A DNA stretch of 64,000 nt, taken from positions 1 to 64,000 of the forward strand of contig CM016925.1 of the NCBI GenBank assembly GCA_006247105.1. Direction: 5' to 3'. Positions 7,265 through 59,607 of this stretch are shown here, in pieces (positions within the stretch are counted from its first letter, which is position 1; every line of letters starts with the position of its first letter). A program made the translations under genes and the position numbers. Source of the DNA: Giardia muris (lineage: Eukaryota; Fornicata; Diplomonadida; Hexamitidae). Below the pieces are notes generated by a model. That model searched no databases, was not told the DNA's origin, and saw only the letters and a list, made by a program, of their open reading frames with translations.

Positions 7265-8872
7265 ATGTTCGATACGGATTTGATGGAGGCGGTCAAGAAG
7301 GGAGACCTCAAGGGCGTGAAAAGGAATCTCAGTCAGGCTGGGAAACAGGATGGATATGGTGGGACGGCCCTGATGTGGGCTGCAATTAATGGCCGCGCCG
7401 ATTTCATCTCCCTACTTGAGAAGGAGATTGGAATGCAGGACAACAGGGGATGGACCGCATTGATGCTAGCCGCCCACAAAGGCAATACGGATTGTGCCAG
7501 ACTCCTCCTCTCAGAGGCCGGGAAGCAAACGACGGGGGAATGGATTGGCTTTCCCCCCGGGACGACCGCTCTCATGACGGCAGCTCATCGGAATTATCCC
7601 GAGATTGTTGAGCTCCTTCTCCCCTATGAGCAGGGAATGACTGATTCCAAGGGTCATACCGCTCAATGGCATGCAAACAGCAGTCCAGAGAAAGGCGACT
7701 TCACCGAAGTCCGCAAGCTCCTCGAGAACGAAGGGACAGAGCGAATCCCTCCTCCGAGAGAAGAATGTCTGCTTATGGCATCTGCAATCACTGGAGACAT
7801 CGAGGGAGTCAGGAAGCACCTGGATCGTGTCGGATATCAGGATCCGACCGGGACGACGGCATTGATGATGGCAGCAAGCTATGGTCACTCTAATTGCATC
7901 CCCTTCCTAGAAAGAGAAATTGGGATGCAAAGCAATGATGGGACGACCGCATTGATGAAGGCCGCAATGAAAGGTCACACTAGTTGCATTCCCCTACTTG
8001 AGAAGGAGATCGGGATGCAGGACAACTCTGGATGGACTGCATTGATGCTGGCCGCCTACCATGGCAATACGGACTGCGCCCGGCTCCTCTTCTCTGAAGC
8101 GGGGAAGCAAACAACGAAGAGTAGTGGGATCACCTCGAATGGCAAAACAGTTCCCTTCCCTTCCGGAATGACGGCTCTCATGCCTGCAGCCTACTTCAAC
8201 CGCCCTGAAATCGTCCAGCTCCTTCTTCCCTACGAGCAAGGATTAAAGGATTCCGAAGGACACACTGCCAAGTGGTATGCAAACAACAGTCCAGAGAAAG
8301 GAGACTTCACCCAGGTCCGCCAGCTCCTCGAGGACGAAGGGATAGAACGACTTCCTCCATCAAGTCCTGGACTAACCAATCAGGAACATATCAACAAGCT
8401 CACAGCTGAGATCGAGTCTCTCAAGAAAGACCTCTTCTCGTCCAAGAATGCCCTAGAGGAGACAAGGAAGGAGCTATCCCAACTGAATCAGGAAAACTCC
8501 TCGCTCAAACAGCAGCTCGACAATGCTATCAATGAGTCCAAGAGGCATGCGGAGATGAACGAGGACCTTCGAAAGGCCTCTGACCAGAATCGAGCCCTCA
8601 TCAACGCCCTCACCACCGAGAAGGCGACTCTTCAGGAGCAGCTCTCCAAGACCATTGAGGACCTCAAGAGAGCACTCGCAGACCAGAAGGCCCAGAACCT
8701 CGTCCTCGAGAAGGAGAACGCCCAACTGAGGACCGAGAGCCATGACATGAAAGACCTTCGGAGACGCCTCGAGGAGGTGGAGGAGGAGAAGAGGATCCTC
8801 CTCCAGAACCTCGCTGCTGTCGGGGGCAGGCTCACCAACCACCCCCAGGGCCTTGGAACGCCCACTGGATGA
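7265..8872 (+). CDS. Ankyrin-repeat/coiled-coil protein (Giardia 21.1-like)
   Basis: 535 residues, complete. Residues ~1-360 hold two ankyrin blocks: LMEAVKKGDLKGVKRNL opens the first, and LMASAITGDIEGVRKHL the second. Each block has several TALMxAA...CARLL and VELLLPYEQG repeats and a xxAxWxANxSPEKGDF insert. Residues ~370-525 form a long coiled coil (LTAEIESLKKDLFSSKNALE onward), and the tail is short (NHPQGLGTPTG). No kinase or RING domain follows. Giardia encodes hundreds of such 21.1 proteins, and their functions are largely unknown. The ATG sits directly behind the conserved TTCAAAA leader. Part of the coiled coil (8504-8649) is identical to the divergent copy at 1-1430. Confidence 0.9.
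   Translation: MFDTDLMEAVKKGDLKGVKRNLSQAGKQDGYGGTALMWAAINGRADFISLLEKEIGMQDNRGWTALMLAAHKGNTDCARLLLSEAGKQTTGEWIGFPPGTTALMTAAHRNYPEIVELLLPYEQGMTDSKGHTAQWHANSSPEKGDFTEVRKLLENEGTERIPPPREECLLMASAITGDIEGVRKHLDRVGYQDPTGTTALMMAASYGHSNCIPFLEREIGMQSNDGTTALMKAAMKGHTSCIPLLEKEIGMQDNSGWTALMLAAYHGNTDCARLLFSEAGKQTTKSSGITSNGKTVPFPSGMTALMPAAYFNRPEIVQLLLPYEQGLKDSEGHTAKWYANNSPEKGDFTQVRQLLEDEGIERLPPSSPGLTNQEHINKLTAEIESLKKDLFSSKNALEETRKELSQLNQENSSLKQQLDNAINESKRHAEMNEDLRKASDQNRALINALTTEKATLQEQLSKTIEDLKRALADQKAQNLVLEKENAQLRTESHDMKDLRRRLEEVEEEKRILLQNLAAVGGRLTNHPQGLGTPTG
8504..8649 (+). repeat. 146-bp segment identical to 1-146 (inverted)
   Basis: Partner of the repeat at 1-146. Encodes coiled-coil residues of the ankyrin gene. 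A diverged third version is near 63675-63815. Confidence 0.9.
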
Positions 8873-9902
8873 CCTGCGTCCGGCAGGGGCGGGAGGTCGG
8901 AAGGCCCGGCCGGATGAAGGAGTCCCCGTCGGTCCTCCTATGGGCCTCCGGGATCAACGGTCATCGTCCAGTGCCCCGGTCTTCGTCCTTCGATCAAGAG
9001 GAGTGAACGGGATCACGGGAGGGACGAGAGGACGACCATGAGCCCCGGTTGATCCCAACCCGTCTCCATGAAGGAGGGCCGGCCTCCTGGATCTGCCTGA
9101 GGGCATGGATGGAGAGCGGGGAAGGGCACCAGGTCGTGCATGGCTGTGTGAGCCAATGCCGGCTGCTCACTGCTCCGGACTCGTGACAGAAGTGGGTGTC
9201 CGGAGTTCACGCCCTCCAGCTTGTGGGTCGTGAGTGGAACCGTGCACGTTGGACATCTCGTTCTCCGGACCAACGCCCCTTGAAGGAACCCGTAGACGCA
9301 TGGGTCGCAATCCCATGTCAGGATGGTACCGCAACGACAAACGCTCTGGGGTCCTAAGCACCTCTGTATAAGCACATGATGCAGGATGGTTCCCCTCGAT
9401 GAGGAGGGGCTCAACGACGACCAGTTCGACAGCACTCTACGTGAGCGGCACCTTCTTTGCGGCATCCTCAGGCCATATGGCCCGGAAGTCCGGCAGTACC
9501 GTCGGGGATGGAGAGCCGTGGTTGAGGAGCAGGGTGCGTGCTGAGGTCGAGGTCACCGTGCTGGCGGTTATGACGATGGATGCGCCCCCACTTCCCTATC
9601 CATCCTTGCCATCCTCCCCGTCCTGGGCCGGGGGGCCTCATCGCCTCCACTTACGATGGAGGAGTCCCGTACCTTCTCCCGTCCCGCGTGACGTGCCAGT
9701 CGAGGAGAATCCGTCCAAAAAAGAGCAAGGCCTCGACACGACCGGTTAAGCACCCCGAACCCGCCCCCTGTCCTCAAAGGGCCGCTTTCCCCTTGACAAG
9801 CCCCCCGACGCTTGAGGGACGCGAAAGATCGGCATCCTCATCAACCATGATGATTCCACCACCAGGCCACCCCCTGCCTGATAATGAGCAGGAGATGCTT
9901 TA
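8873..9902. other. 1-kb region without an intact gene
   Basis: No open frame with clear family features. A minus-strand frame at 9167-9465 contains a RING-like remnant (listed separately). The rest is GC-rich sequence similar in character to 5816-7137. No RNA gene recognised. Confidence 0.45.
9167..9465 (-). pseudogene. Possible RING-finger remnant
   Basis: In the minus-strand frame starting at 9465 the translation includes CRCGTILTWDCDPCVYGFLQ followed by RTRCPTCTVPL. This spacing resembles the second half of a RING finger (C-G-x..C-x2-C ... R-C-P-x-C-x-x-P), as found at the C-termini of ankyrin-RING proteins such as the one at 61545. The His of the usual CGH is replaced by Thr, and the first zinc pair is not clear. 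It is at best a decayed fragment. Confidence 0.3.
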
Positions 9903-10300
9903 ATAGTGTTGGTTTCACTTAGACGCGGAAGACGGACTTCGATGTATCTTGGCTCCTCGCCCCCTAGGAGTAGTACGCGGACACGGTTATCTATTGATTG
10001 ACGCATGATCGCGTCCCTGATGAGGCGCCTCGGGACAGTTATGCGTTCGTATTGGTCTGAATCTAGGTTGTATGCCCACGTCCAGCAGTACGTCTTTCCG
10101 TTACGCCTGTCGATGTGAATGTCTCCTACGCGGTGTCAGCACCAACAGTCGTTGCAGAAGACCATCCAACCATTTTGTGGGCAAGTGTACCACTCTAGAC
10201 AGTGCGTTTCCTCTTCTTGTTCGGTCCTGATTGTCTCAACTTTGTGGGGCAAAAAATGGAGCCAAGTAAGAGGCGACCTCCTACACCACGCCATTAGGTA
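9903..10300 (-). pseudogene. Unidentified protein-like remnant antisense and upstream of the viral Rep
   Basis: One minus-strand frame reads protein-like from about 10300 to 9905 with a single TGA near 10134-10136. It includes HCLEWYTCPQNGWMVFCNDC upstream of the stop, and RRNGKTYCWTWAYNLDSDQY then RITVPRRLIRDAI downstream. The balance of aromatic, Cys and charged residues is unlike the shadow frames nearby. After SETNTIK (about 9905) the quality drops. It overlaps the start of Rep on the other strand. It could be a second viral gene or an older host gene hit by the insertion. I do not recognise the family. Confidence 0.35.
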
Positions 10301-11236
10301 TTCACGGCGCGGGAGGAGCCATTACGGATGGTGCCGTCTGATTTATCCTCTCGCGTGCGATATGTTGTCTGGCAGCACGAGAAGGCTCCCACGACCGATG
10401 CATGCTCAAGGATATGCTGAATTCACCGATTTCTCACGCTTTACAACAGCGCGATCTCTTCTTCAATTACCTGAAGGAACGCACCTTGAGGTTCGAGCGG
10501 GTACACGTTCTCAAGCACGAGACTACTGTAGGAGGGAGGAGACGCGTGTTGATGGATCCTGGAAACAAGGCACTTGGCAGCCTGAAAGGGGTAGTGCTGC
10601 TCGCCTTTTTGGAGGCCAGACGCCTGAGGAGTTCCTTCGTTCGTGGACGACTCTGCGAACGTTGCTGATCTGTCTATAGATCGAGACGCTCTCGTGCATC
10701 GCTTCCCTTCTATCTTTGCACGGGAGTCTAACTTGTTTGCTTATGGACTTGACGTCTCCTCAATGCCCGCATCTCGACCGTCGACATTAAGCTGTTCGAC
10801 TGGCAGATCGCTCTGCCTCGTCACCTACGCGCCCCTAGACGAGGAGGAGCTTTTGGAACTGGCCACGAGTCTGCCACTGGTAAATCGACGTTCGTCAGTA
10901 CTTGGCACGTGTCGAGTTTCGTCGCGTTCTTATCCCTCGTTGGTCCTTGAGGGATCTCCTCCTTGCGTACGTCACTGGATCATAGCCTTCAGTATGCCAC
11001 GCGATGCACAGGAGGAGTTCTTGCAGGACCGCACGTATCCGACCACGCTCGAACGTACCTCTGATGGAGGTATCCAGATGTCAGACAAGTATATGTCCTG
11101 TCAGAAGTACGTTGATGCTCATGTGATCGTGACCGCGAACACCTCTCCTCTATACGAGAAGCTCCCGAAGTGCATCGTTGAGATCTACCTCGACCTTCAT
11201 CTATGGTCTGTGCATATTGGGTGCTCGTGTTCCTAG
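10256..11236 (+). pseudogene. rep: Endogenous CRESS-DNA virus replication-associated protein (Rep), decayed
   Basis: The region has the full order of Rep landmarks spread over three frames. In the frame from the ATG at 10256 there is an in-frame TAG at 10295-10297 directly before VFT (motif I region), then RYVVWQHEKAPTT ending at 10396. In the next frame come HAQGYAEF (motif II type, 10401-10424) and YCRREET (motif III with the catalytic Tyr, 10524-10544). In a third frame TGKST (10876-10890) resembles a degraded Walker A. DRTYPTTLE, and VIVTANTSP as superfamily 3 helicase motif C, lie in the frame ending at 11236. The total span of ~980 bp matches a normal ~330-residue Rep. Rep nicks the viral origin through the HUH/Tyr domain and unwinds DNA. 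The stop and at least two frame changes make this copy non-functional. CRESS viruses have been linked to Giardia and Entamoeba (established literature, from memory). Confidence 0.87.
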
Positions 11237-11480
11237 AGGTCAGTCGGAACAATGAAGCAGGGAAGAGTCAGGAACAGATGACTTCGATCCACGAGGAGCA
11301 GCACGTGATCAGCCGCCCCTAATCAACCTCTGAGACCCTGGGGATGGCGTCTCTTCGCTTTGTTCCGGTCGGGTTCATCGAATGCGAATATAGTGGACTG
11401 CTTCTTGTTCGATCTGCACGAGTCAACCCCCGGTCTCCCATGACTTCCCCTCTTCGAGGGACCACGGGGCAACGGAGTTC
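11237..11480. other. Spacer between viral Rep remnant and truncated ankyrin-kinase gene
   Basis: No coding pattern seen. Ankyrin homology begins abruptly around 11480 (PPGMTALMLAAHQNHFEV), so the 5' half of the ankyrin gene is missing here. The breakpoint between viral-type and ankyrin sequence should lie in this stretch. Confidence 0.5.
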
Positions 11481-11488
11481 CCCCCGGA

Positions 11489-13561
11489 ATGACGGCTCTC
11501 ATGCTCGCAGCCCACCAGAACCACTTCGAGGTCGTCAAGCTTCTTCTCCCCTATGAGCAGGGACTGACCGATTCCAAAGGGAACACGGCCAAGTGGCATG
11601 CAGGCAAGAGTTCAGGCGACAACTATCAAGTCCGAAGGCTCCTCGAGAACGAAGGAACAATGCGCCTCCCTCCTCCATCGGACCCCACTGAAATCCTTAG
11701 GTTCCTGGAGCATGTCAACGAACTTATCACTGAGAACGAGCCCATCAAGAAGGAACTCGCCTTGGCCAACAGCGCCCTGGATGAGGCGAGGAAGGAGCTA
11801 TCCTCCCTCAAACAGCAGCTCGACAAGGCCGTTGAGGAGTCTGAGAAGCACGAGAAGATGCACGATGTCCTCCAGGTGGCTTCCAACCAGAAATGGACCC
11901 AGATAATCCAGCTCGAGAAGGAGAACGCCAATCGCCAGGCCCGTATCGAAGAGCTCACCACCGAGAAGAAGTCCCTCCAGGATCAACTTTCGTCGTCCAG
12001 GAAGGCCCAAGAGGGGACAGAAGGGAAACTAGCCCAGATGAGTCAAGAGATCGACCTCCTCAGACAGCAACTAAAGAGCTACCAGGAGATGTACGAGGGC
12101 ATTTCTGAGACGAGGGGGGAAGTCTCCTCTCTCAGGAACCAACTCTCTAAGATCGACGGAATCTCCCATGTCCGTGCAGACTTCGAATCCCCTCAGGAAC
12201 GCCTACTAGAGACCGGGAACAGCCTCAAGGTCCGTTCTGACCTCGCACAGAAGACCGGATCCCTCATCTTAGCCGCCGTTCGGGGAGACCTTGAGGCCAT
12301 ACGAAGGAACGTCGACCAGGTGGGGCAGCAGGAAGTCTCAGGCATGACAGCCCTGATGCACGCCGCCTCCCGGGGCCAGGCTGACATCATCCGCTTCCTC
12401 CGACCCCTCGAGGCCCGTCTTCAAGATGCCTCAGGAATGACGGCCTTGATGCATGCGGTGAGAGCCAGTCACAAAGAGTGCGTCGGCCTCCTCCTCCTGG
12501 AGAGGGACCTGAAGGACGGGGAGGGCAGGACGGCAGCCGAACACGCGGTAGATGAGAAGATGCGACGAGTGCTTCTGAACCAACCCACGCTTCCGAGGCT
12601 CCCAGACAGTCTTTCGGTATACTGCCTGACAACAGTGATAGGAGGAGGTGCCTTCGGGACGGTCTATGCGGCCCACAAGAGCGGCCGGAACGTGGCGGTC
12701 AAGGTCGTCAACCTCGGAGGATATAGCGAAGAAGGAAGGGAGAAGCTTCGCAAGGAGGCGGAGATACTCTTCTCCCTCGACCATCCGAACATCCTCCGAT
12801 GCCTCGGGACAGGAGAGAACGACGTTGACGATACATACGTCATTGTGGCAGAGCTTTGCTGTGGAGACCTTCGTGAGGAGATGAACAGAAGGAAGAAGGC
12901 CAAGTCCTCGTATAGTGACCAGGAGGCTTGGAGGATGGTTCGGGAAGTAGCGGCCGCCCTCGCATACCTCCACGAGAAGAAGCTCGTCCACAGGGATCTG
13001 AAGCCTGCAAACGTCCTCCTTGCCCCGGACGGCCGGTGTGTCCTGGGAGACTTCGGACTTGCAAGAGCACTCGAGGACTCCTCTAGAATGAGCACCTTTG
13101 CAGGGACTCCCTTGTACATGGCCCCCGAGATTCATCGAGGAGAGAAGTATGACAAGTCTGTTGACGTCTGGGCTCTGGGAGTGGTTGGATATGAGTTGTG
13201 CACTGGGAGGCTTCCTTTCCTCAGGGTAACCGCCATCACCGGGGAAGAGCCCCCAGCCATCGAGGGAAGGGGTGAGATTGCTCCCCTCATCTCCCGGATG
13301 CTCTCGAAGGACCCCAAAGACTGTCTTATAGTATGGAAGGTCGAAATGTCCACTCAAAGTAAAGAGGAGTGTCAGCCAAACTTATCATATCGTTCATTGA
13401 TGACCAGATTCGCCCCTGTTATCGCCAGGGAGGGGGATTATGATAGCGATGGGGTGATGGGCTTCCTCTCGCTCGAGTACGCCAGGAGAACGATACTCAA
13501 CGACTGGAATGGTTCCCAGAGTCTCTTTATTACAAACCTTCTCCGTAAGGGCTTGAATTGA
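11489..13561 (+). CDS. Ankyrin-repeat NEK-type protein kinase, truncated at both ends
   Basis: Begins at an internal ankyrin Met (MTALMLAAHQNHFEVVKLLL) corresponding to the middle of the paralogs, so the normal N-terminus is lost. A coiled coil follows (residues ~70-245), then three more ankyrin repeats (~255-355), then a Ser/Thr kinase domain (~375-610). The kinase keeps the usual residues: GGGAFGTVY loop, VAVKVV lysine, HRDLKPANV, DFGLA, GTPLYMAPE and DVWALGVVGYELCTGRLPF. NEK-type kinases are massively expanded in Giardia and many carry ankyrin repeats. The kinase domain breaks off after MLSKDPKD (about 13320). The remaining ~80 codons (CLIVWKVEMSTQ...) are unrelated and run antisense over the 3' end of the next gene (13394-13561). 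It may be transcribed, but a pseudogene is equally plausible. Confidence 0.7.
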   Translation: MTALMLAAHQNHFEVVKLLLPYEQGLTDSKGNTAKWHAGKSSGDNYQVRRLLENEGTMRLPPPSDPTEILRFLEHVNELITENEPIKKELALANSALDEARKELSSLKQQLDKAVEESEKHEKMHDVLQVASNQKWTQIIQLEKENANRQARIEELTTEKKSLQDQLSSSRKAQEGTEGKLAQMSQEIDLLRQQLKSYQEMYEGISETRGEVSSLRNQLSKIDGISHVRADFESPQERLLETGNSLKVRSDLAQKTGSLILAAVRGDLEAIRRNVDQVGQQEVSGMTALMHAASRGQADIIRFLRPLEARLQDASGMTALMHAVRASHKECVGLLLLERDLKDGEGRTAAEHAVDEKMRRVLLNQPTLPRLPDSLSVYCLTTVIGGGAFGTVYAAHKSGRNVAVKVVNLGGYSEEGREKLRKEAEILFSLDHPNILRCLGTGENDVDDTYVIVAELCCGDLREEMNRRKKAKSSYSDQEAWRMVREVAAALAYLHEKKLVHRDLKPANVLLAPDGRCVLGDFGLARALEDSSRMSTFAGTPLYMAPEIHRGEKYDKSVDVWALGVVGYELCTGRLPFLRVTAITGEEPPAIEGRGEIAPLISRMLSKDPKDCLIVWKVEMSTQSKEECQPNLSYRSLMTRFAPVIAREGDYDSDGVMGFLSLEYARRTILNDWNGSQSLFITNLLRKGLN

Positions 13562-58000: not shown

Positions 58001-58043
58001 ATGATTGCTGATCCTTTTATTTCAACTAATAGTAAGTGAAGAG

Positions 58044-58442
58044 ATGACGACAGAGTCTAAGGCCTCGTCCGGATCGACTCTCTCGAGAACAAGGAGTGCC
58101 ACGTGCACCATCGAGCACATTATGGACGTCTCTCGTTCAAAAGACATGTCTTTAAGAAATGGTGCCTTTTACATGAGGATTTTGCACCTATATCGTCTTG
58201 CACAGCTGATACCGTATGAATCCAAGCATTATCTTAAGGAGGTGAGAAGAGTTGCTAACGGAAAGGTCATCAGGCTCGATCCGACGATCAAGAACACCAT
58301 TTGCAAAGGGTGTGGGATTCTTCTTATTGTTAATGTTACCGCGGACCTACTTATGCATAAAACGGCACCAATCCTAGTATGTCGGTCTTGTGATACTCGC
58401 AAGCATATGGCCCAGAAAAGACGAAAGTCACGACATGTCTGA
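58044..58442 (+). CDS. Rpr2/Rpp21/Snm1-type RNase P/MRP zinc subunit
   Basis: 132 residues from ATG 58044 (MTTESKASSGS). The pattern fits Rpp21/Rpr2: a helical N-terminus (GAFYMRILHLYRLAQLIPYE), then IKNTICKGCGILL, a beta stretch and LVCRSCDTRKHMAQKRR. The CxxC...CxxC pair would bind zinc. These proteins are part of RNase P or RNase MRP, which trim tRNA 5' ends and process rRNA in the nucleus and nucleolus. Which of the two enzymes is not evident. Confidence 0.75.
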   Translation: MTTESKASSGSTLSRTRSATCTIEHIMDVSRSKDMSLRNGAFYMRILHLYRLAQLIPYESKHYLKEVRRVANGKVIRLDPTIKNTICKGCGILLIVNVTADLLMHKTAPILVCRSCDTRKHMAQKRRKSRHV

Positions 58443-58519
58443 TGAGATACCTGCTTGAAGTATCTGGACGATCATGAACTCTACCATGTAACGTTCCCCC
58501 TTTCTCTTCTCTTCCCTTC

Positions 58520-59035
58520 TCATTGCGTCGCCGCAAGCCAAAAGCCTTGGTGCTTCATCTCCTTCTGAAATCGTTCCGCCCAGTTCTCTAGCTCACGAAT
58601 TAGAAAGCAGGGAACACCTTCAAGCAAGACCAGACGAGGCGTCAAGTATTGTTCAAGATGACGTAGCATCACGTCCTTCGTCATGTCAATCAGCATGTTC
58701 TCCATGTCGGTGGGATAATAAGGGATTCGTGGGTCCACTTGTTCTGGAGGGACAATAATGAAACGGATCTCAAATGGAACCAGAGGGAAGCGTGGTCTGA
58801 ATGTCAAACTAGGTGAATAGTCGGTTAAGTACCCGATCCTTTCGTTCGTCTCCCCATACAAGAGTGAGACCTCAACACTGGCCGATGAGAGACAAGTGGA
58901 ATCCATGACGAAGACGCTGATATGCCCAAGCCCTTCCACCGCCGGAAACGCCATCGCATACATCCCGGCTTGCAGCTCCTTGAAGTCCGAAGAGAAGCCG
59001 AACCTATCAACGACGCAACCGAAGTAAGAGGTCAT
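58520..59035 (-). CDS. Hikeshi/OPI10-family protein (Hsp70 nuclear import carrier)
   Basis: 171 residues from ATG 59035. The N-terminus (MTSYFGCVVDRFGFSSDFKE, then MYAMAFPAVEGLGHISVFVM) parallels the FGC-x-V...F-x-L...I-x-HV-x-VF-x-L pattern of Hikeshi. GYLTDYSPSLTFRPRF corresponds to the LGFxxNxKPSxxF segment, FEIRFIIVP to the I-G-I-x-ExxxE strand, and the C-terminal LENWAERFQKEMKHQGFWL to the conserved K-W-Y-ENFxR+Lxx-N-P-x-FW ending. Hikeshi carries Hsp70 into the nucleus during heat shock. Match is by pattern, not search. Confidence 0.7.
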   Translation of the reverse strand: MTSYFGCVVDRFGFSSDFKELQAGMYAMAFPAVEGLGHISVFVMDSTCLSSASVEVSLLYGETNERIGYLTDYSPSLTFRPRFPLVPFEIRFIIVPPEQVDPRIPYYPTDMENMLIDMTKDVMLRHLEQYLTPRLVLLEGVPCFLIRELENWAERFQKEMKHQGFWLAATQ

Positions 59036-59052
59036 ATCTTATGGGATTCTGT

Positions 59053-59577
59053 TTACATCTGAGACTTCTTTGGAGGTCTTGGTAATTGATGTTCCAAGAC
59101 ATGGAAGTAATAGATAGAGAACGCCATTATTAGTGATAAGATCGCATGGATTCTAAAGTTGATCTTGTAGGATAATGGTCGATAACAACACTTGCAACAC
59201 CTCCTGCACGGTAACAAGATGATCAGGAGCATGACCCCAGTGACACTGAGCCCTATTTGTGCCAAGAAACCCCAATACCCAGCGTTCAAAAGGTCCTTCT
59301 TACTGATGTTAGTGAACCCATTATGGTCGTTGATGTGTATGATCGTTAAAATCAAAGCGATTACTCCAAACATGGTGTGAATATAAATGAAGGCCTGATG
59401 TAGTAGCTTCGCCTTTATCTTCGCTTGACATCGGCAAAGGCTAGGCAAGAGAACCGGGATGCGAAGCCCGAGAAGGATTCCGGAGAAGAGGGTGAGGGTC
59501 ATAAAGGCCATCAAAGCTATACTCAAAGGTCTCATAGTGTTTAATATTATTTTCATCAAATAAAGCCCAGTGGCCAT
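59053..59577 (-). CDS. Four-helix membrane protein with paired histidines, possible heme protein
   Basis: 174 residues from ATG 59577. Four hydrophobic helices at ~18-38, ~62-82, ~101-122 and ~142-160. Helix 2 carries His67 and His81 (13 residues between) and helix 4 carries His144 and His159 (14 between). This is the H-x13/14-H spacing that binds two stacked hemes in ferric reductase/NADPH oxidase-type membrane domains. A cysteine-rich loop (PCRRCCKCCYRP) joins helices 3 and 4, and the C-terminus is basic and Pro-rich (PRPPKKSQM). There is no flavin or NADPH domain, so any electron donor would be a separate protein. The heme call is inference; other four-helix families remain possible. Confidence 0.6.
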   Translation of the reverse strand: MATGLYLMKIILNTMRPLSIALMAFMTLTLFSGILLGLRIPVLLPSLCRCQAKIKAKLLHQAFIYIHTMFGVIALILTIIHINDHNGFTNISKKDLLNAGYWGFLAQIGLSVTGVMLLIILLPCRRCCKCCYRPLSYKINFRIHAILSLIMAFSIYYFHVLEHQLPRPPKKSQM

Positions 59578-59607
59578 TTACCAGCCCCAAACGGAGCGCC
59601 CCAAGGC

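Follow-up and report, generated by a model that had tools for sequence, protein, structure and literature searches.

A decayed CRESS-type Rep gene of probable viral origin, close to the start of the largest Giardia muris contig

The window analysed here is a stretch of 64,000 nucleotides, positions 1 to 64,000 of Giardia muris contig CM016925.1 (assembly GCA_006247105.1; the contig is called C1 below). Near the start of this contig, the largest of G. muris, VSP, ankyrin, and kinase domains surround a locus at which pieces of a Rep gene can be read on the + strand in three frames along 10256–11236. Of the 34 open reading frames of at least 200 amino acids, 26 were lined up, and the gap from 8873 to 11488 (2616 bp) is the largest between them; the second-largest spans 58001–59607 (1607 bp). 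Rfam returned no rRNA or other RNA family in 8600–11700 or in the window as a whole. The features of the locus are as follows.

8860–9227, no strand assigned: dispersed repeat of 368 bp that starts at the 3′ end of an ankyrin gene (7265–8872)
9693–9880, no strand assigned: 188-bp fragment shared with rDNA-linked contigs, sharp-edged, left neighbour of the insert
9881–11477, no strand assigned: maximal extent of the Rep-bearing insert (~1.6 kb), between two repeated host segments
10256–10297, + strand: N-terminal Rep remnant, an ATG followed by an in-frame TAG
10298–10420, + strand: frame with a VFT landmark and the stretch ahead of motif II
10392–10616, + strand: HUH endonuclease piece, containing motifs II and III and lying within the open frame 10119–10679
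10753–10950, + strand: frame with a Walker A-like GKST, a weak landmark
10943–11236, + strand: helicase-like piece with a motif C-like VIVTAN before its end
11478–13561, + strand: ankyrin-kinase (NEK-type) gene, apparently 5′-truncated where it meets the insert on the right

We set the limits of the insert at 9881–11477 at most because its flanks repeat elsewhere in the genome and the DNA of 9890–11430 was listed only at the Rep locus and in two redundant contigs, C40 and C41. The 188-bp fragment on the left was 99% identical at eight further places listed and, in both of the places checked by Rfam (one in C30, the other at the end of C4), lies ~2.5 kb past an LSU rRNA on its 3′ side, for which reason we call it rDNA spacer. 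The 368-bp repeat recurs in at least 29 further places at 94–98% identity, two of them over its first 279 bases only, as counted in the 40 of 50 candidates that were scored. On the right, most listed paralogous stretches of the ankyrin-kinase gene begin to align at ~11478, and the reading of this gene starts inside ankyrin repeats, which suggests that its 5′ part was lost at the insert edge. The Rep sequence therefore sits within host chromosomal sequence, with host flanks on both sides, the right one seen in a single contig.

Rep landmarks occur in order along 10256–11236, as an earlier note made from the letters of this DNA had claimed. The ATG at 10256 is followed by the in-frame TAG of that note at 10295–10297, a stop at codon 14. 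One frame holds both motif II (HxQG, 10401) and motif III (10524), a second holds GKST at 10879, and a third holds VIVTAN at 11123. Four loose motifs in the right order and spacing were found in none of 20,000 dinucleotide shuffles of 10256–11236, a test that is partly circular because its expressions and spacings were set from recall with the landmarks already known; the database matches described below are not circular. The real window yielded two ordered motif sets on the + strand and none on the − strand; both + sets have their start at 10401, and the only difference between them is which GK[ST] they include. Single motifs appeared in 1 (motif II), 865 (motif III), 14,714 (GK[ST]), and 287 (motif C) of the 20,000 shuffles. 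The TGKST-like Walker A remnant that the earlier note had listed is present as GKST, but with so frequent a chance occurrence it carries no weight alone.

The endonuclease half, around motifs II and III, is by its sequence a true homologue of Rep. Pfam Viral_Rep (PF02407) matched the frame 10119–10676 (E 7.2e-6, 26.6 bits, cut-off 26) and the trimmed piece 10392–10616 (E 1.2e-6, 29.1 bits), and the PDB chains 6h8o (4.1e-7) and 2hwt (4.8e-7) matched this half with 33 bits over 58 residues. We take both structures to be nanoviral Rep endonuclease domains from a plant virus. Four further Rep chains came up weakly in the same search (E 0.2 to 0.73), together with one unrelated chain (E 0.98). Whole Rep pieces had no match at E 0.01 among 5.8 billion proteins, and residues 88–162, searched against these proteins at E 10, gave 13 candidates with one relative among them (P0001, E 0.023). 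P0001 has 307 amino acids with Viral_Rep and RNA_helicase domains, and it aligned to the HUH piece at 41% over 61 residues (41.6 bits). NCBIfam and PHROGs gave nothing.

We also scored the pieces with a Rep profile of nine sequences, consisting of open reading frames from eight of ten bacterial loci plus P0001 (L058 and L066 were left out by a length and Walker A filter), against 1000 residue shuffles per piece, for which 551, 445, and 692 scores were reported. The HUH piece reached 32.9, with a shuffle maximum of 6.0. The piece on the motif I side (10298–10420), where VFT is the one landmark, matched a Rep from a Clostridia MAG (L057) at 64% across 14 residues and scored 4.2 bits with a three-sequence Rep profile and 0.3 bits with the nine-sequence profile, the latter under its shuffle maximum of 1.4.

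Motif order and a host-like codon score point to a helicase half downstream, for which the homology searches gave no support. The profile search that the earlier note had proposed brought Viral_Rep above its cut-off in the endonuclease half, but in the helicase frames (10628–11233, 10753–10947, 10834–10947, and 10943–11230) Pfam returned neither Viral_Rep nor RNA_helicase (PF00910), AAA_29 being the sole match of 10753–10947 (E 0.11). PDB held no match for 10628–11233 or 10943–11230, the helicase part of P0001 did not align to the candidate helicase pieces, and the Clostridia Rep, as a partial bacterial frame, did not align to the helicase piece. With the nine-sequence profile, which is mostly bacterial, this piece scored −1.8 (shuffle maximum 3.6). 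The frame 10628–11233 aligned to P0001 (E 0.005 when counted as a single comparison), which we take as chance because the alignment falls on the N-terminal part of P0001, at 21% over 84 residues. Codon scores are low across most of the Rep gene, and the highest value from 9560 to 11240 is 14.3, in frame +2 at 11000; this signal is suggestive only because a spacer stretch near 9680 reaches 11.1.

In the assembly searched (9,737,486 bases in 52 contigs), the Rep gene is present in C1, C40, and C41, and whole-genome searches with the Viral_Rep profile and P0001 as queries listed nothing beyond these three. C40 covers C1:1–11473 and C41 covers C1:1–11252, with no mismatch in the main alignments. 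In the stretches compared column by column with C1, neither contig has a mismatch; C40 shows 19 one-base indels in 3080 columns, six of them within 10256–11236, and C41 shows four in 2248 columns, two of them within that interval. To the left of these stretches, the gaps of C41 include longer ones (31 gap bases in 15 openings over C1:1–8858). C40 also runs ~9 kb past the start of C1. As both contigs repeat the opening 11 kb of C1 and depart from it by indels alone, some end contigs of the assembly are apparently redundant. We dropped the idea of three separate Rep copies given the absence of mismatches. Since indels but no substitutions separate them, the three assembled copies are probably one locus, and repeated long-read assembly would give such indels; a very recent duplication is a possible alternative.

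The Rep gene is dead in all three assembled copies, where codon 14 is the TAG and the frame changes at least once. At least two frame changes had been claimed in the earlier note. Three frames are indeed needed in the window, and the frame of Walker A differs from that of motif C in every contig, but the frame relations between motifs II and III and between motif III and Walker A differ between C1 and C41 (C40 had no exact anchor). Because these relations vary among contigs separated by one-base indels, the copy in the window may carry lesions that the living genome lacks. Taken to the extreme, every disruption could be an assembly error, and the parasite itself would have an undamaged gene that could be expressed or domesticated. 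In the stretches aligned, the copies do differ by one-base indels only, most of them beside a same-base neighbour (18 of 19 in C40, 3 of 4 in C41), and the authors of the G. muris genome, in the excerpts available of their article, describe correcting indels behind frame shifts (PMC7641422). However, the TAG stands in three of three contigs with no mismatch, Walker A and motif C lie in different frames in the same three, and most of the gene has low codon scores. We regard an intact gene as very improbable.

An assembly chimera or contamination would make the locus an artefact. The right junction is present in C1 alone, C40 ending at 11473 and C41 at 11252, both within 230 bases of it, and the excerpted genome article mentions the removal of contaminating contigs (PMC7641422). 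Nonetheless, ~10 kb of left flank is common to the three contigs, the flanks are repeats and genes of the same genome, and the Viral_Rep search listed no contig besides C1, C40, and C41. An artefact of this kind is extremely unlikely, more so than an intact gene.

Other parts of a viral genome were sought around the Rep gene. A neighbouring capsid gene or viral origin would favour a virus as source, although elements made up of Rep alone are known. The upstream minus-strand frames 9749–10135 and 10139–10321 had no match in NCBIfam, PHROGs, or Pfam, where a model of the vilyavirus capsid is perhaps absent. We considered these frames as a capsid remnant and found no support for it; the 47% matches of 9749–10135 to many rDNA-linked contigs trace, in our reading, to the 188-bp spacer fragment. 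No nonanucleotide pattern of a viral origin occurs within 8800–11600, and among hairpins with arms of at least 10 bases in 8900–11500 there is none in the insert and a single one at 9173–9205, outside it. The insert edges share no 6-mer as a trace of target duplication, a kind of sharing that 870 of 2000 random zone pairs display. A second Rep suggested by a PF00910 match at C4:797868 was discarded, the stretch being an AAA ATPase (PF00004, 5.9e-17).

Of the relatives recovered, the nearest is a Rep from Clostridia MAGs (L055/L057, with L056 also listed), which aligned at 49% over 53 residues and with 46.2 bits scored above P0001 in the same program, in search sets that seem poor in CRESS virus Reps. 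It was recovered at two loci among 33 stretches matching a pattern. When 391 genomes of that bacterial class were sampled, PF02407 was detected in 10, nine above the cut-off and the centre genome included. In its bacterial record, this CRESS-like Rep gene is an open frame of ~350 amino acids free of stops. Such data could point to a gut bacterium as donor, in which case G. muris would have received a plasmid or integrative element of Clostridia type that carried a CRESS-like Rep and later decayed. A bacterial origin has earlier been proposed for protozoan Reps, as told in the excerpts of one article (PMC7493932). The ranking of relatives is biased, however, and cannot decide the donor because CRESS virus Reps seem to be scarce in the sets compared. 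Neither Rep piece had a match among 72,556 plasmid records, and the helicase piece went unmatched by the mostly bacterial profile. Phage records gave no match for the first piece, the one compared with them. A motif pattern typical of the HUH piece matched two IMG/VR contigs, and other IMG/VR scans found no relative, from which IMG/VR seems poor in such Reps.

Evidence from a congener also bears on the donor. Vilyavirus genomes with Rep and Cap are integrated in G. duodenalis, lineages A2 and B, and in the excerpted account their authors hold the joint integration of both genes against a bacterial source and propose Rep-mediated integration during nuclear replication as the route (PMC7493932). 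On these two grounds, the integrated genomes and the proposed route, we prefer a virus as the likelier donor over a plasmid or bacterium, and consider the bacterial transfer unlikely, although less so than the artefacts discussed above. The earlier note had called the locus an endogenous viral element and had named best matches to bacterial plasmid Reps as one outcome that would speak against it. A broken CRESS-type Rep embedded in Giardia sequence is what was found, but the viral donor is not settled; the nearest relative being a Clostridia MAG Rep comes close to the outcome named, while the plasmid records stayed without a match.

We hypothesize that the locus is a single endogenous viral element, a CRESS-DNA virus rep captured near a chromosome end and now decayed, and we consider this reading probable. 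As for the way and the age of the integration, we infer that a CRESS-DNA virus may have replicated in the nucleus of an ancestor of G. muris, and that a copy of its rep region was captured in a break near a chromosome end. This break would have been repaired among subtelomeric material, comprising the 3′ repeat of an ankyrin gene, an rDNA-spacer fragment, and an ankyrin-kinase gene, after which the captured gene would have decayed through a stop and a frame change. A further reach of this idea is tentative and rather doubtful: CRESS viruses outside the known Giardia-infecting family might have infected the G. muris lineage, and the fossil beside a displaced rDNA-spacer fragment might mark integration at rDNA-rich chromosome ends. 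Rodents are a plausible setting because a vilyavirus from kangaroo rat faeces is mentioned in excerpts of a further article, which gives vilyavirus genomes as ~2 kb (PMC11281440).

Among the literature matches listed, covering titles and abstract openings with subscription papers mostly outside, none describes a Rep element from G. muris, and the main text of the G. muris genome article has no occurrence of “virus” or “viral” (PMC7641422). Kinsella et al. 2020 analysed this very assembly, GCA_006247105.1, and, in the excerpted text, found no element of Naryaviridae, Nenyaviridae, or Vilyaviridae in it; the excerpts name nucleotide BLAST for parasite shotgun contigs and state no search method for the G. 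muris assembly (PMC7493932). Nucleotide BLAST would likely miss so decayed a Rep piece. In the literature examined, which was partly available as excerpts, the only Giardia Rep fossils are those of certain G. duodenalis (G. intestinalis) isolates. A decayed Rep in G. muris would add a rodent parasite to the host range, and faecal viromes of rodents, like further isolates of G. muris, would offer a test of both the age and the host range of Giardia-infecting CRESS viruses.

Compared with known systems, the locus resembles the structures 6h8o and 2hwt in the region of motifs II and III, although only part of the domain is comparable. Its likeness to the Clostridia MAG Rep lies around the same two motifs, and it is unlike that protein in that the latter is an uninterrupted 350-residue frame in a bacterial record, whose helicase parts did not align. 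Liu et al. 2011 describe Rep-like sequences in G. intestinalis, 13 in GS and two in BRIS, and these, with Rep-like genes of Entamoeba, are similar in being circo/nanovirus-type Reps in diplomonad or amoeba genomes; their Giardia set comprises two G. intestinalis isolates, and the excerpts of the article do not mention G. muris (PMC3198968). The Vilyaviridae elements of G. duodenalis differ from the G. muris locus, which belongs to another species and consists of a decayed Rep only, with no capsid found, at one locus, yet they share with it a CRESS-type Rep integrated in a Giardia genome (PMC7493932).
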